Assembly: GCF_000315365.1 (NCBI RefSeq) | Contig: NZ_CAOS01000003.1 | Location: 186,001-250,000, forward strand | Direction: 5' to 3' | DNA from: Desulforamulus hydrothermalis Lam5 = DSM 18033 | GTDB taxonomy: Bacteria; Bacillota; Desulfotomaculia; Desulfotomaculales; Desulfotomaculaceae | Length of the DNA: 64,000 bases | Shown here: in pieces, positions 2,059 to 62,638 of the stretch | Numbering within the stretch: the stretch's first letter is position 1 | How the letters are laid out: each line of letters opens with the position of its first letter | Position numbers and translations under genes: made by a program | Notes under the pieces: model-generated | The model's input: the letters and a program-made list of their open reading frames with translations, nothing else | Database searches by the model: none | Told to the model about the DNA's origin: nothing

Positions 2059-2082
2059 AGACCGGCCCCACCTGGCCGGTCA
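2059..2082 (+). terminator. Terminator hairpin, left copy of a 24-bp duplication
   Basis: GACCGGCC/GGCCGGTC stem just after the PBP1A stop. It is directly followed by the end of the inserted element rather than by a U-tract. A near-identical copy (one base fewer in the loop) lies at 2349-2372. Reading minus, it is followed by TTTTG, so the ancestral hairpin may have served both convergent genes. Confidence 0.8.
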
Positions 2083-2348
2083 CAGACTGTAAACAACGGT
2101 TGTGAAACAAAATGAGGTGGTTTTATGATCCCCTGCCGGCGACTTGTCGAAGCACCGCTAACAGCACTTGATGAGCGAAAGGAGCCATTGGGGTGGCGCC
2201 CACAGGACGTGGGCGCCAGCCGAACCGGGCCAGGATGGACCGTTTGAGGCGACCCCAAGGGCGACCGTAGCGAATCATAGTGCTGTCGGTGCGTAGACCG
2301 GGAGCCAAAGGGATCATAAAACCACCGATAATGTATGTCGACGCTCTG
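2083..2348 (+). mobile_element. MITE-like inverted-repeat element, copy A (266 bp)
   Basis: Starts CAGACTGT and ends GCTCTG. The inner part of both ends is an inverted repeat of GGTGGTTTTATGATCCC. The core is GC-rich and carries a 9-bp perfect stem (GGCGCCCAC/GTGGGCGCC, 2195-2217) nested inside TTGGGGT/ACCCCAA arms. There is no transposase gene, and short ORFs across it are not convincing. It is flanked by a 24-bp direct duplication of a terminator hairpin. Homologous copies are at 39617, 40756 and 62349, with a shorter form at 19933. Confidence 0.85.
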
Positions 2349-2372
2349 AGACCGGCCCCCCTGGCCGGTCAA
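2349..2372 (-). terminator. Terminator hairpin, right copy of the 24-bp duplication
   Basis: Second copy of the GACCGGCC/GGCCGGTC hairpin, ending next to the stop codon of the convergent DMT gene. Reading plus, it is followed by AATTATTTATT, so the U-rich tract for PBP1A now lies after this distal copy. Confidence 0.75.
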
Positions 2373-38837: not shown

Positions 38838-39584
38838 ATGAAGGCATATATTTTTGATTGGCGCAAATGCAGAAAACAGTTAATGCTGCTGGGTGCCATA
38901 TTTATTTGTGCGTTATTTTTCGGTACCTTACTTTACCGCCAGCAAGCGGTGACGGTGACAGGAAAAAAATATGCAATTTATAAAGTTAAAACCGATGAAA
39001 AAGTGGCAGCCTTAACCTTTGATATCAGTTGGGGAACCAAAGTACCCGGCCCGGTACTCGATACTTTAAAAAGGTATGATGTTAAATGCACGTTTTTTGT
39101 ATCCGGTCCCTGGGTAGTTAAGCATCCTGAATTTCCGCAGCGGATTGTATCCGAAGGCCATGAAATTGCCAGCCATGGCGAAGAACATGTAAATCTCAGC
39201 CAGTATAACAAAGAAGAAATAAAGAAAAATATACTCGCTGCCCATGAAAAAATAAAACAAGTAACCGGCGTCGCACCTAACCTTATCCGTACCCCTAACG
39301 GTGACTGGAATAACTTGGTTTTAACTGCCGCCGAAGAACTTAATTATAAAGTAATTCAATGGAGTGCGGATTCCCTGGACTGGAAAAAACCAGGCGTTGA
39401 TGTTATTGTCAATAATGTGTTAAAAAAGGTTAAGCCGGGAGCCATTATATTAATGCATGCCAGCGATACCTGTCTGCAAACGCCGGCTGCTCTGCCACCG
39501 GTGCTGGAGGGACTGCAAAAGCAGGGGTACCGCTTGGTGACGGTATCAGAACTGCTGACCATGGGGTCTCCTGCCATTGATTAA
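38838..39584 (+). CDS. pdaB: Polysaccharide deacetylase, PdaB-like sporulation type
   Basis: 248 residues. An N-terminal membrane anchor (LMLLGAIFICALFFGTLLY) precedes a NodB-type deacetylase domain: ALTFDISWGTKVPGPVLDTL (catalytic Asp), CTFFVSGPWVVKHPEF, GHEIASHGEEHVNLSQY (metal His pair) and RTPNGDWN. This follows the PdaB pattern, a spore-cortex-related enzyme in Bacillus, and the neighbour dacF fits that role. ATG at 38838 lies behind GGGAGGTG; an upstream in-frame GTG overlaps the RBS. It ends at a hairpin duplicated by MITE copy B. Confidence 0.88.
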   Translation: MKAYIFDWRKCRKQLMLLGAIFICALFFGTLLYRQQAVTVTGKKYAIYKVKTDEKVAALTFDISWGTKVPGPVLDTLKRYDVKCTFFVSGPWVVKHPEFPQRIVSEGHEIASHGEEHVNLSQYNKEEIKKNILAAHEKIKQVTGVAPNLIRTPNGDWNNLVLTAAEELNYKVIQWSADSLDWKKPGVDVIVNNVLKKVKPGAIILMHASDTCLQTPAALPPVLEGLQKQGYRLVTVSELLTMGSPAID

Positions 39585-39594
39585 ACAGGCAAAA

Positions 39595-39616
39595 ATTCAG
39601 GGCAAGTCCCTGTATT
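39595..39616 (+). terminator. Hairpin after pdaB, left copy of a 22-bp duplication
   Basis: CAGGG/CCCTG stem-loop within a 22-base sequence repeated at 39882-39903 with one mismatch. The element follows directly. Confidence 0.65.
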
Positions 39617-39881
39617 CAGAGTATCGACAAAGGTTGTAAAACAAAGTGAGGTGGTTTTATGATCCCCCCCCCCCTGACTAGTCGACGCGTGGCCACAGCT
39701 CTTGATGAGCGAAAGGAGCCATTGGGGGGGCGCCCACAGGATGTGGGCGCCAGCCGAACCGGGCCAGGATGGCCCGTTTGAGGCGACCCCAAGGGCGACC
39801 GGAGCGAATCACAGTGCTGTCGGTGCGTAGACCGGAGCCAAAGGGGATCATAAACCACCGCTAATGTTTGGCAACACTCTG
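39617..39881 (+). mobile_element. MITE-like element, copy B, with primer-like insert
   Basis: 265 bp, same ends and core as copies A and D. Between the left repeat and the core (39664-39694) the usual sequence is replaced by an 11-C run and TGACTAGTCGACGCGTGGCC, without change in length. That string contains SpeI, SalI and MluI sites in a row and looks like a laboratory primer tail. A 7-G run at 39724-39730, where copies A and D read GGGGTGG, is a second possible base-calling error. It is flanked by a 22-bp hairpin duplication. Confidence 0.8.
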
Positions 39882-39903
39882 ATTCAGGGCAAGTCCCTGA
39901 ATT
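39882..39903 (+). terminator. Hairpin, right copy of the 22-bp duplication
   Basis: ATTCAGGGCAAGTCCCTGAA followed by TTATTTTAC; the U-rich tract lies after this distal copy. Confidence 0.65.
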
Positions 39904-40044
39904 ATTTTACTTGGCCTTATACCTTTTAAAATTAAACCTAATAATATATGATAACCCGGTAAGAATTGCCTGGTTCTTTTCAAAACATCCCGGTTCTGAT
40001 ATATTAATGCTGGGCCGCAATCGATGAGTTAGGGGTTATCTATA

Positions 40045-40746
40045 ATGATAAAACGTAAAAGTTTTATATTAATTGCCGTATGCATAATTGTGACAGCTGC
40101 TCTGTATTATACCCGAAATACGCACTGGCACTTTTGGGGTAGCTCACCACTCTATAGCAGTCCGGAACAATTGGCAGACTATCTGCGCTCCTTTGGTGCC
40201 ATGACGGTTGTTATCAGTTTGTTGCTGATGGTACTGCAGACACTGTTTACACCCTTGCCGCTGTTTTTGCTGGCAGGGGCCAACGGTTTTATCTTTGGCC
40301 TCTGGTACGGCATCCTAATAACCTTAACCGGTTCTGTCATCGGTTCCTCCATCGCCTTCTTCCTGGCCAGGGGATTTGGCCGGGGGCTGGTTTGCCGCTT
40401 TGTCAAAGAAACCCAAATGTCCAAAGTGGATCGCATGAGCTGCCATAAAGGCCCCTGGATGGTCTTTATGGCCCGTTTAATCCCGGTCATACCTTCCAGC
40501 ATCATCAGCTATGTGGCGGGTTTAAGCAAGATGACCTTCCGGGGTTTTTTTATCGCCACCGCCGTAGGCAAACTGCCCGAAATTATTATTTATACCGCCC
40601 TGGGACACAGTTTTAGCGTGGCGGAAGGTATGGCCACCAAGATAACTTTACTGCTGATCCTGCTAACCTTGCTGGCCTGGCCGTTAATTTCAAGAAAACT
40701 AAAAAAAACCTCCGGTGAGGCCCCTCCCAAGACACCCCCGGGATAA
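40045..40746 (+). CDS. TVP38/TMEM64 (VTT domain) membrane protein
   Basis: 233 residues. It has an N-terminal transmembrane segment and a VTT/DedA-superfamily core: TPLPLFLLAGANGFIFGLWY, GSVIGSSIAFFLARGFGRGL, and FMARLIPVIPSSIISYVAGL with GLSKMTFRGFFIATAVGKLP. Relatives are implicated in membrane lipid scrambling and envelope homeostasis. The stop codon lies inside a terminator hairpin that MITE copy C has duplicated. The gene is flanked by two direct copies of the element (B and C) and is convergent with a DedA gene. Confidence 0.88.
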   Translation: MIKRKSFILIAVCIIVTAALYYTRNTHWHFWGSSPLYSSPEQLADYLRSFGAMTVVISLLLMVLQTLFTPLPLFLLAGANGFIFGLWYGILITLTGSVIGSSIAFFLARGFGRGLVCRFVKETQMSKVDRMSCHKGPWMVFMARLIPVIPSSIISYVAGLSKMTFRGFFIATAVGKLPEIIIYTALGHSFSVAEGMATKITLLLILLTLLAWPLISRKLKKTSGEAPPKTPPG

Positions 40747-40755
40747 TACCCGGGG
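40736..40755 (+). terminator. Hairpin at the TVP38 stop, left copy of a 20-bp duplication
   Basis: CCCCGGGATAATACCCGGGG overlaps the stop codon; an identical copy follows the element at 40903-40922. Confidence 0.75.
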
Positions 40756-40901
40756 CAGACTGTCGACAAAGGTTGTAAAACAAAGTGAGGTGGTTTTATG
40801 ATCCCCTGTCGGCGACTTGTCGAAGCACCGGTCACAGCACTTGATGAGCGTAAGGAGCCAAAGGGGATCATAAACCACCGCTAATGTTTGGCAACACTCT
40901 G
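40756..40901 (+). mobile_element. MITE-like element, copy C, internally deleted (146 bp)
   Basis: Same ends as A, B and D, but the core between two GGAGCC hexamers is missing, leaving one GGAGCC followed by AAAGGGGATCATAAACC. This is a deletion between short direct repeats. It is in the same orientation as copy B, about 875 bases away. It is flanked by a perfect 20-bp duplication of a terminator hairpin. Confidence 0.88.
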
Positions 40902-40922
40902 ACCCCGGGATAATACCCGGGG
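40902..40922 (-). terminator. Hairpin, right copy, next to the dedA stop
   Basis: CCCCGGG/CCCGGGG stem followed on the plus strand by TTATCTTTT. It sits between the element and the dedA stop codon. Confidence 0.7.
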
Positions 40923-41543
40923 TTATCTTTTGGCTTGCCGCTTGCGATACAAACAGTACATCAGGATACCTCCCAACAATATGAGCACCACAACATCCGC
41001 CCGATGAAACCAGGGCTTTATGGCCTGCCAGTTTTCACCCAGGGCATAACCGGCATAAACCAGTAAGATACTCCAGGGCAGTGATCCCAATACAGTATAG
41101 AAGACAAATTTTTGCAAATTCATACCGGCAATGCCGGCGGGCAGTGAAATAAAAGTACGAACAACGGGCATTAACCGGGTAAAAAAAACGGTAGCTTCGC
41201 CGTAACGGGCAAACCAACGGTCGGCCATCATCAGTTTTTGACGGTTAAGGCCAAGGCAGCGGCCGTATTTTTCCAAAAAAGGCCTGCCGCCAAGGCGCCC
41301 CAGGCAGTAAGAAACCACCGAACCAAAGGTACCTCCCAGGGTACCTGCCAGCACAGTCCACCAAAAATCCAACCGCCCGCAAAACACCAGGTAGCCGCCA
41401 AAGGGCAGTATCACTTCACTGGGCAGGGGAATGTTGGCGCTTTCCAGGGCCATGCCGACAGCAATCCCCCAGTAGCCCAGGGCACCGATCACTGTAGTCA
41501 GCCATTGCCAAACGGTATCAATTAAGTTTGTTAATTCAGCCAT
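40923..41543 (-). CDS. dedA: DedA family membrane protein
   Basis: 206 residues. DedA landmarks: ALESANIPLPSEVILPFGGY, GTLGGTFGSVVSYCLGRLGG, and FFTRLMPVVRTFISLPAGIA with GMNLQKFVFYTVLGSLPWS. Relatives flip undecaprenyl phosphate or phosphatidyl lipids and support envelope integrity. It is convergent with the VTT gene, so two members of one superfamily end at the same duplicated terminator. It is followed upstream by ctpA, which has its own terminator. Confidence 0.93.
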   Translation of the reverse strand: MAELTNLIDTVWQWLTTVIGALGYWGIAVGMALESANIPLPSEVILPFGGYLVFCGRLDFWWTVLAGTLGGTFGSVVSYCLGRLGGRPFLEKYGRCLGLNRQKLMMADRWFARYGEATVFFTRLMPVVRTFISLPAGIAGMNLQKFVFYTVLGSLPWSILLVYAGYALGENWQAIKPWFHRADVVVLILLGGILMYCLYRKRQAKR

Positions 41544-62323: not shown

Positions 62324-62348
62324 AGCTCGCCGGAAAAACCGGCGAGCC
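62324..62348 (-). terminator. Terminator hairpin, left copy of a 25-bp duplication
   Basis: CTCGCCGG/CCGGCGAG stem. On the minus strand it is followed by CTTTTTGCA, so it ends the glpT transcript after the element. A copy with one mismatch lies at 62614-62638. Confidence 0.85.
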
Positions 62349-62613
62349 CAGACTGTAGACAAAGGTTGTGAAACAAAGTGAGGTGGTTTTATGATCCCCT
62401 GTCGGCGACTTGTCGAAGCACCGGTAACAGCACTTGATGAGCGAAAGGAGCACTTGGGGTGGCGCCCACAGGACGTGGGCGCCAGCCGAACCGGGCCAGG
62501 AGGGCCCGTTTGAGGCGACCCCAAGGGCCACCGGAGCGAATCATAGTGCTGTCGGTGCGTAGACCGGAGCCAAAGGGGATCATAAACCACCGCTAATGTT
62601 TGTTGACACTCTG
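62349..62613 (+). mobile_element. MITE-like element, copy D (265 bp)
   Basis: Full-length copy, the best reference for the family: CAGACTGTAGACAAAGG at the left end, CACTCTG at the right, GGTGGTTTTATGATCCCC and its inverse GGGGATCATAAACCACC near the ends, and a core with GGCGCCCAC/GTGGGCGCC. It lies between glpT and the FIST gene and is flanked by a 25-bp duplication of a terminator hairpin. Relative to the terminated gene it is inserted in the opposite orientation to copies A-C. Confidence 0.88.
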
Positions 62614-62638
62614 AGTTCGCCGGAAAAACCGGCGAGCC
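62614..62638 (-). terminator. Terminator hairpin, right copy of the 25-bp duplication
   Basis: TCGCCGG/CCGGCGA stem 40 bases after the glpT stop. On the minus strand it runs straight into the element, without a U-tract. Confidence 0.75.

Follow-up and report, generated by a model that had tools for sequence, protein, structure and literature searches.

In DDE transposition, the 3' ends of the element are joined to the two strands of the target, and the stretch between the two joining points is duplicated; its length is usually nearly fixed. Very long duplications (over 20 bp) are found in the IS1202-type group. Members of the IS1182 family measure about 1.3–1.95 kb and consist of one transposase ORF flanked by terminal inverted repeats. 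Palindromic targets have been reported for some of them (Siguier et al., cited in PMC4923244 and PMC5678879). In staphylococci, the IS1182-family elements IS1272 and TnSha1 target stem-loops and terminators without a sequence consensus, and a cruciform has been suggested as the form on which IS1272 acts (PMC5678879, PMC4923244). Both delete the target hairpin, and IS1272 is reported to insert without a duplication (PMC5678879, PMC4923244); the deletion has been placed at the 3' feet (PMC5678879). A stem-loop-duplicating route, pathway b, was drawn as a hypothesis by Wan et al. in their Fig. 13 (PMC5678879, PMC4923244). Short non-autonomous derivatives (160–169 bp) of the IS1182-family element ISMac2 are known as MITEs from Methanosarcina, and the passages on them describe no hairpin duplication (PMC3852290). 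An IS1182 MITE with a hairpin duplication was not found in the open literature searched.

The elements analysed here resemble IS1272 in having stem-loops and terminators as targets, but the hairpin that IS1272 deletes is kept and duplicated. Like the ISMac2 MITEs, they would be short non-autonomous derivatives of the IS1182 type.

Hairpin-flanked elements and an insertion sequence with the same ends

The window is a stretch of 64,000 nucleotides (C3:186001-250000) from G000, a 2.69-Mb draft genome in 16 contigs. The original prediction had described four elements in it, with common ends and with palindromic direct repeats that differ from element to element, and all of them were found as described: each lies between two copies of a hairpin of its own (Table 1). 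The shared core was matched four times in the window, compared with an expectation of 0 from shuffled sequence, and at least one ORF ends just before each of the four elements.

Table 1. MITE copies in the window and the hairpin copies that flank them
Feature	Position	Strand	Description
MITE copy 1	2083..2348	+	266 bp, CAGACTGT...CTCTG, TwoAYGGAY-type core
Left hairpin copy, MITE copy 1	2059..2082	.	AGACCGGCCCCACCTGGCCGGTCA; ORF end at 2049, 10 bp before
Right hairpin copy, MITE copy 1	2349..2371	.	AGACCGGCCCCCCTGGCCGGTCA; loop shorter by 1 base
MITE copy 2	39617..39881	+	265 bp; ~39664-39695 resembles a cloning-linker artefact
Left hairpin copy, MITE copy 2	39595..39616	.	ATTCAGGGCAAGTCCCTGTATT; ORF end at 39584, 11 bp before
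Right hairpin copy, MITE copy 2	39882..39903	.	ATTCAGGGCAAGTCCCTGAATT; single hairpin at the orthologous site in G005
MITE copy 3	40756..40902	+	147 bp, same ends, internal deletion removing most of the TwoAYGGAY core
Left hairpin copy, MITE copy 3	40736..40755	.	CCCCGGGATAATACCCGGGG; overlaps ORF end (stop at 40746)
Right hairpin copy, MITE copy 3	40903..40922	.	CCCCGGGATAATACCCGGGG, identical to left; adjoins convergent ORF ending at 40923
Orthologous site of MITE copy 3 in G005 (Desulforamulus putei)			single hairpin
MITE copy 4	62349..62613	+	265 bp; element positions ~63-217 match Rfam RF01731 TwoAYGGAY
Left hairpin copy, MITE copy 4	62324..62348	.	AGCTCGCCGGAAAAACCGGCGAGCC
Right hairpin copy, MITE copy 4	62614..62638	.	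AGTTCGCCGGAAAAACCGGCGAGCC; 1 mismatch

The anomalous part of copy 2 consists of an oligo-C run and TGACTAGTCGACGCGTGGCC, a SpeI/SalI/MluI linker, in place of the normal sequence. The reverse complement of this linker stands at the start of another contig of the draft, C12 (L112:1-31), and both occurrences look like a finishing or anchored-PCR artefact of the assembly.

In the whole draft, the core pattern was matched 78 times (41 forward, 37 reverse), compared with none in the reversed control. The end motif alone gave 158 matches at no more than one mismatch (4 in the control); since these outnumber the core matches, some elements have the ends but lack the core. A strict criterion, two ends and an adjoining direct repeat, was passed by 64 distinct copies. 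Their sizes were 42, 54 and 57 bp, about 111–146 bp, 211–231 bp and, mostly, 256–272 bp, so that the predicted 265 bp holds as the commonest form and not as a fixed size. Their direct repeats had a mean length of 22.8 bp (sd 3.7, range 14–32). Each of the three shortest copies (42–57 bp), which are barely more than two ends, has a hairpin duplication of its own, indicating that nothing but the ends appears to be needed in cis.

A transposase gene between the same ends was found in the genus, where matches to the end motif and to DDE_Tnp_1_6 coincide. IS copies of 1604–1607 bp in two congeners have the common ends CAGACTGT..GACAAA and differing perfect hairpin repeats of 21–27 bp. The complete, single-contig congener (G003) holds five 1607-bp copies with the ends CAGACTGAAGACAAA/CAGAGTGTCGACAAA, each between its own perfect repeat (TGGTATACTTTTAGTATACCA, GGAGTGCCGCATGTATGCGACACTCC, AAACCAGAGGACTTAAACCTCTGGTTT, AGCAGAGTTTGCCAGAACTCTGCT and TTGCTTGGCCGTAGCCAAGCAT). 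Desulforamulus putei (G005) has a 1604-bp copy with the ends CAGACTGTCGACAAA and CAGACTGTAGACAAA and the same 27-bp hairpin on both junction contigs, as well as a second element seen as a pair of junction contigs with a common 24-bp hairpin; for the hairpin match in this genome, one flank was read on the other strand. The IS1182 of G005 is that of D. putei DSM 12395, with 100% protein identity and an equal distance from the contig start, which makes Desulforamulus the most likely genus for the window as well. The CAGACTGTNGACAAA ends are common to the MITEs and the D. putei IS, and a variant is present in the G003 IS.

Between its terminal inverted repeats, the partner IS has one ORF of 490–539 aa with the Pfam domains DDE_Tnp_1_6, DUF772 and DDE_Tnp_1. 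The G003 and D. putei transposases are 74% identical to each other and matched the NCBIfam IS1182 model (NF033551) with 456 and 447 bits, at a cut-off of 270. The original prediction had named the IS1202 group for its long duplications, a feature shared here, but the enzyme matches the IS1182 family instead; with the only ISNCY model matched, which is not specific to IS1202, it scored 71–74 bits at a cut-off of 325. The further claim that the elements are non-autonomous was supported by this autonomous IS, whose ends are the same and whose hairpin duplications are of the same kind, and the search it had proposed for a transposase gene with those ends succeeded in the two congeners. The end-pattern matches listed for G000 included no IS1182 copy with such ends. 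Its two DDE_Tnp_1_6 genes were considered as mobilisers and rejected, being distant and devoid of these ends. The autonomous partner may have been lost from G000, may lie in a gap or may be unlisted. Even though the matches listed for G000 contained none, an IS1182-family insertion sequence is the likely mobiliser of the MITEs and would have moved these particular copies.

Hairpin content and centring of the duplications

To compare the duplications with intergenic sequence, as the original prediction had suggested, we scored palindromes in the 64 duplicated segments. A hairpin score of at least 6 was reached by 56 of them, compared with 2.4% of element-free intergenic 23-mers and, at the same threshold, 1.9% of random window segments; 39/64 lay above the 99th percentile of their own dinucleotide shuffles. 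The prediction was also to fall if most copies lacked duplicated flanks, and nearly all tested copies had hairpin flanks. In 51/64 copies, the best palindrome and the repeat had centres no more than 1 nt apart. In addition, 52/64 had at least five T among the eight bases after the right copy or at least five A among the eight before the left copy; the background of T-rich octamers in the window was 5.4%. This profile of hairpin and A/T tract is that of predicted intrinsic, often bidirectional, terminators.

In older insertions of G000, such as L010, L015 and L020, the two hairpin copies have diverged mostly in the loop and the stems still pair, as if selection had kept both as terminators.

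When GTDB genomes were scanned with an alignment of the transposases, relatives turned up throughout Bacillota. Counting only loci with both ends and both flanks, we obtained 43 full-length relatives, in which a hairpin abuts 80 of the 86 IS ends, compared with 4% of random 45-mers, and 27 of the 43 have an exact 12-mer common to both flanks. Among 36 copies with exact repeats, the five of G003 included, the repeat measured 18–34 bp (mean 25.3, sd 3.9); in 33 of them, the centre of the palindrome was at most 1 nt from that of the repeat. Many repeats have one to three A at the start and T at the end, and the palindrome frequently runs on into the A/T tracts; judged by eye, joining seems to take place at the foot of the stable stem. 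The correlation between the length of the repeat and that of the longest palindrome was only moderate (r 0.37–0.39 for the G000 copies and the relatives), because A/T tracts stretch many palindromes past the joining point. Centring is therefore a cleaner measure than a length regression.

Some full-length copies carry a hairpin at each end, the left one differing from the right one; such copies were seen in other genera at L240, L255, L256, L258, L260, L273, L280, L286 and L344. Unlike hairpins on the two sides need later recombination or a chimeric assembly, and on full-length IS copies they point to exchange between copies.

Six proteobacterial IS1182 loci (L345-L350; ISCfr1-like and others), with ends like GGCCTGTTGAAAAA and about 27% protein identity, have direct repeats of 4–5 bp or none, and no hairpin. 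Duplication of a whole hairpin therefore marks a sub-clade and not the IS1182 family to which the partner transposase belongs, and the target mode differs between sub-clades. An Enterococcus ISEfa7 copy has the CAGACTGT ends, with no matching repeat in the record examined. The hairpin deletion of the IS1272 type was not encountered, the copies having a hairpin on both sides; the present data fit the hypothetical pathway b of Wan et al.

We consider it highly probable that the MITEs are moved in trans by an IS1182-family DDE transposase that prefers DNA stem-loops and joins the element ends at the hairpin feet. This enzyme would bind the CAGACTGTNGACAAA-type ends, and its preferred target would be a DNA stem-loop, mostly an intrinsic and often bidirectional terminator. 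The two 3' ends of the element would each be joined to a different strand, one at either foot of the hairpin, presumably at its 5' feet, and gap repair would then copy the whole stem-loop, leaving the insertion between two full hairpins. The duplication would vary in length with the target (about 18–34 bp) because the folded hairpin would set the joining sites. A folded target is the simplest explanation for a variable-length duplication that is concentric with a palindrome; in a cruciform, both feet of the stem would meet at one junction whatever the length of the stem. We infer that the enzyme reads the folded structure, either a cruciform or a single-strand hairpin, and not the sequence.

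The centring of the duplications, within 1 nt in 33/36 exact repeats, would also be expected if the transposase recognised a two-fold symmetric duplex with one protomer on each arm and no extruded hairpin. This is possible but unlikely: the targets have no apparent common arm sequence, and on duplex DNA a rigid dimer would have difficulty with joining points whose spacing varies from 18 to 34 bp. Far less probable is random insertion followed by survival only at terminators, where no gene is harmed. It agrees with the position of the elements just after ORFs and with the A/T tracts beside most of them, but selection on location cannot make a duplication coincide with a palindrome and centre on it.

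Single hairpins at orthologous empty sites

The region of D. putei that is orthologous to window positions 38850-41500 is syntenic, with about 78% identity. We aligned it to the window after removing each element and one hairpin. At the sites of the elements at 39617 and 40756, it has one diverged hairpin each, GGATTCAGGGCAATTAAACCTGAATCC and CCCCCGGGAAATTGATCCGGGGG. A closer comparison came from an IS1182 insertion of G003, in which two hairpin copies enclose the IS: the orthologous site in G004, nearly identical over 580 bases, has a single TGGTATACTTTTAGTACACCA, and the 21-bp hairpin differs by 1 mismatch. A second G003 insertion site corresponded to a single diverged hairpin in G004. For a third G003 copy, a search of G004 for the empty site gave no match, and one further G003 site, which matched on one side only, was left out.

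All four examinable sites thus had one hairpin each, excluding two hairpins in the empty sites, the finding that the original prediction had named as contrary to it. The repeat is target-derived, as predicted, being different at each site and single in the four orthologous empty sites; the target was a hairpin, and it was duplicated whole. Together with the hairpin flanks, the single-hairpin sites support the predicted enzyme that makes a long staggered cut and recognises hairpins or terminators. The presence of hairpins on both sides of nearly all copies might have meant that the element carries them or that the original target had two, but a hairpin that varies by site and four orthologous sites with exactly one refute this idea, to which we give next to no credence. 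An equally negligible chance attaches to another hairpin-favouring mechanism with a second hairpin acquired later: group IIC introns do insert after terminators and IS200/IS605 elements, which insert as single strands, do recognise hairpins, but the ends here are inverted repeats common to a DDE IS, the only Rfam family to reach its gathering score on a copy was TwoAYGGAY, with no group II family in the result, and a later step is needless when the duplication is present on all five full-length G003 copies as a hairpin on both sides.

Transposition by the IS1182-type enzyme into a folded terminator would have a simple consequence for the neighbouring genes. Each hairpin copy would retain its outer flank after insertion, an A-tract for the left copy and a T-tract for the right one. 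Transcription coming from the left would read through the first hairpin and stop at the second, with the mirror case for a converging transcript. Each converging gene would keep a terminator, so that the insertion would be nearly neutral, with the element lying in 3' untranslated sequence.

The TwoAYGGAY core and the meaning of the duplicating branch

The interior of the 265-bp form matched Rfam RF01731, TwoAYGGAY, with 58.5 bits (gathering score 43), and it folds unusually well (z −9.7). TwoAYGGAY is known as a candidate structured RNA (PMC2864571), and binding to CsrA has been suggested for it (PMC4333381); the latter proposal was made without the mobile-element context. Matches were present in 27 of the 113 genomes of the class, with at least 22 copies each in G000, G002, G036 and G069. 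In five genomes (G000, G005, G094, G095 and G002; two families by genome labels), TwoAYGGAY is enclosed by CAGACTGT-type ends and hairpins, as the interior of a mobile element, and in others it is a high-copy repeat. The copies read in G001, G003, G009, G035, G036 and G069 were without such ends and hairpin flanks, and the core is therefore not always part of a MITE. TwoAYGGAY is a dispersed repeat that is cargo of the hairpin-duplicating element in several lineages.

Two of the high-copy genomes may have a second way of spreading TwoAYGGAY. The copies read in G069 (L312, L371-L378) and G036 lack IS1182-type ends, and those of G036 (L379-L386) have longer common flanks with AGCGACCC repeats. 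In G002 (L359-L368), copies of the TwoAYGGAY MITE mostly have unlike hairpins left and right, and the left hairpin of L362 matches the right hairpin of L366 as its reverse complement, which suggests recombination between copies or chimeric assembly of this 72%-complete draft.

The original prediction held that duplication of an entire terminator had not been described. The bulk evidence is indeed new; the hypothetical pathway and the palindromic targets of IS1182 members had been published. As far as the open literature goes, the new parts are the duplicating branch in bulk, the empty sites, the MITEs, some as short as 42 bp, the statistics on centring and the connection with TwoAYGGAY. Long direct repeats are reportedly recorded in ISfinder for some members of the IS1182 family, and single long palindromic repeats may already be among them.

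The data show in bulk a stem-loop-duplicating outcome that had been hypothetical beside the deletion by IS1272, and the length of the duplication follows the palindrome of the target, unlike that of usual DDE transposases. With a transposase, its ends, many natural targets and empty sites at hand, structure-guided transposition becomes directly testable. The hairpin pair is a barcode of each insertion that can reveal later recombination between copies. On paper, termination is kept in both directions, which would explain the tolerance of many copies, and TwoAYGGAY, so far a candidate regulatory RNA, is recast as recurrent content of mobile elements. On balance, we favour the broader reading that in a widespread clade of DDE elements the folding of the target, and not the enzyme, sets the length of the duplication, that terminators are duplicated almost neutrally by it, and that TwoAYGGAY has served as its interior in several lineages.
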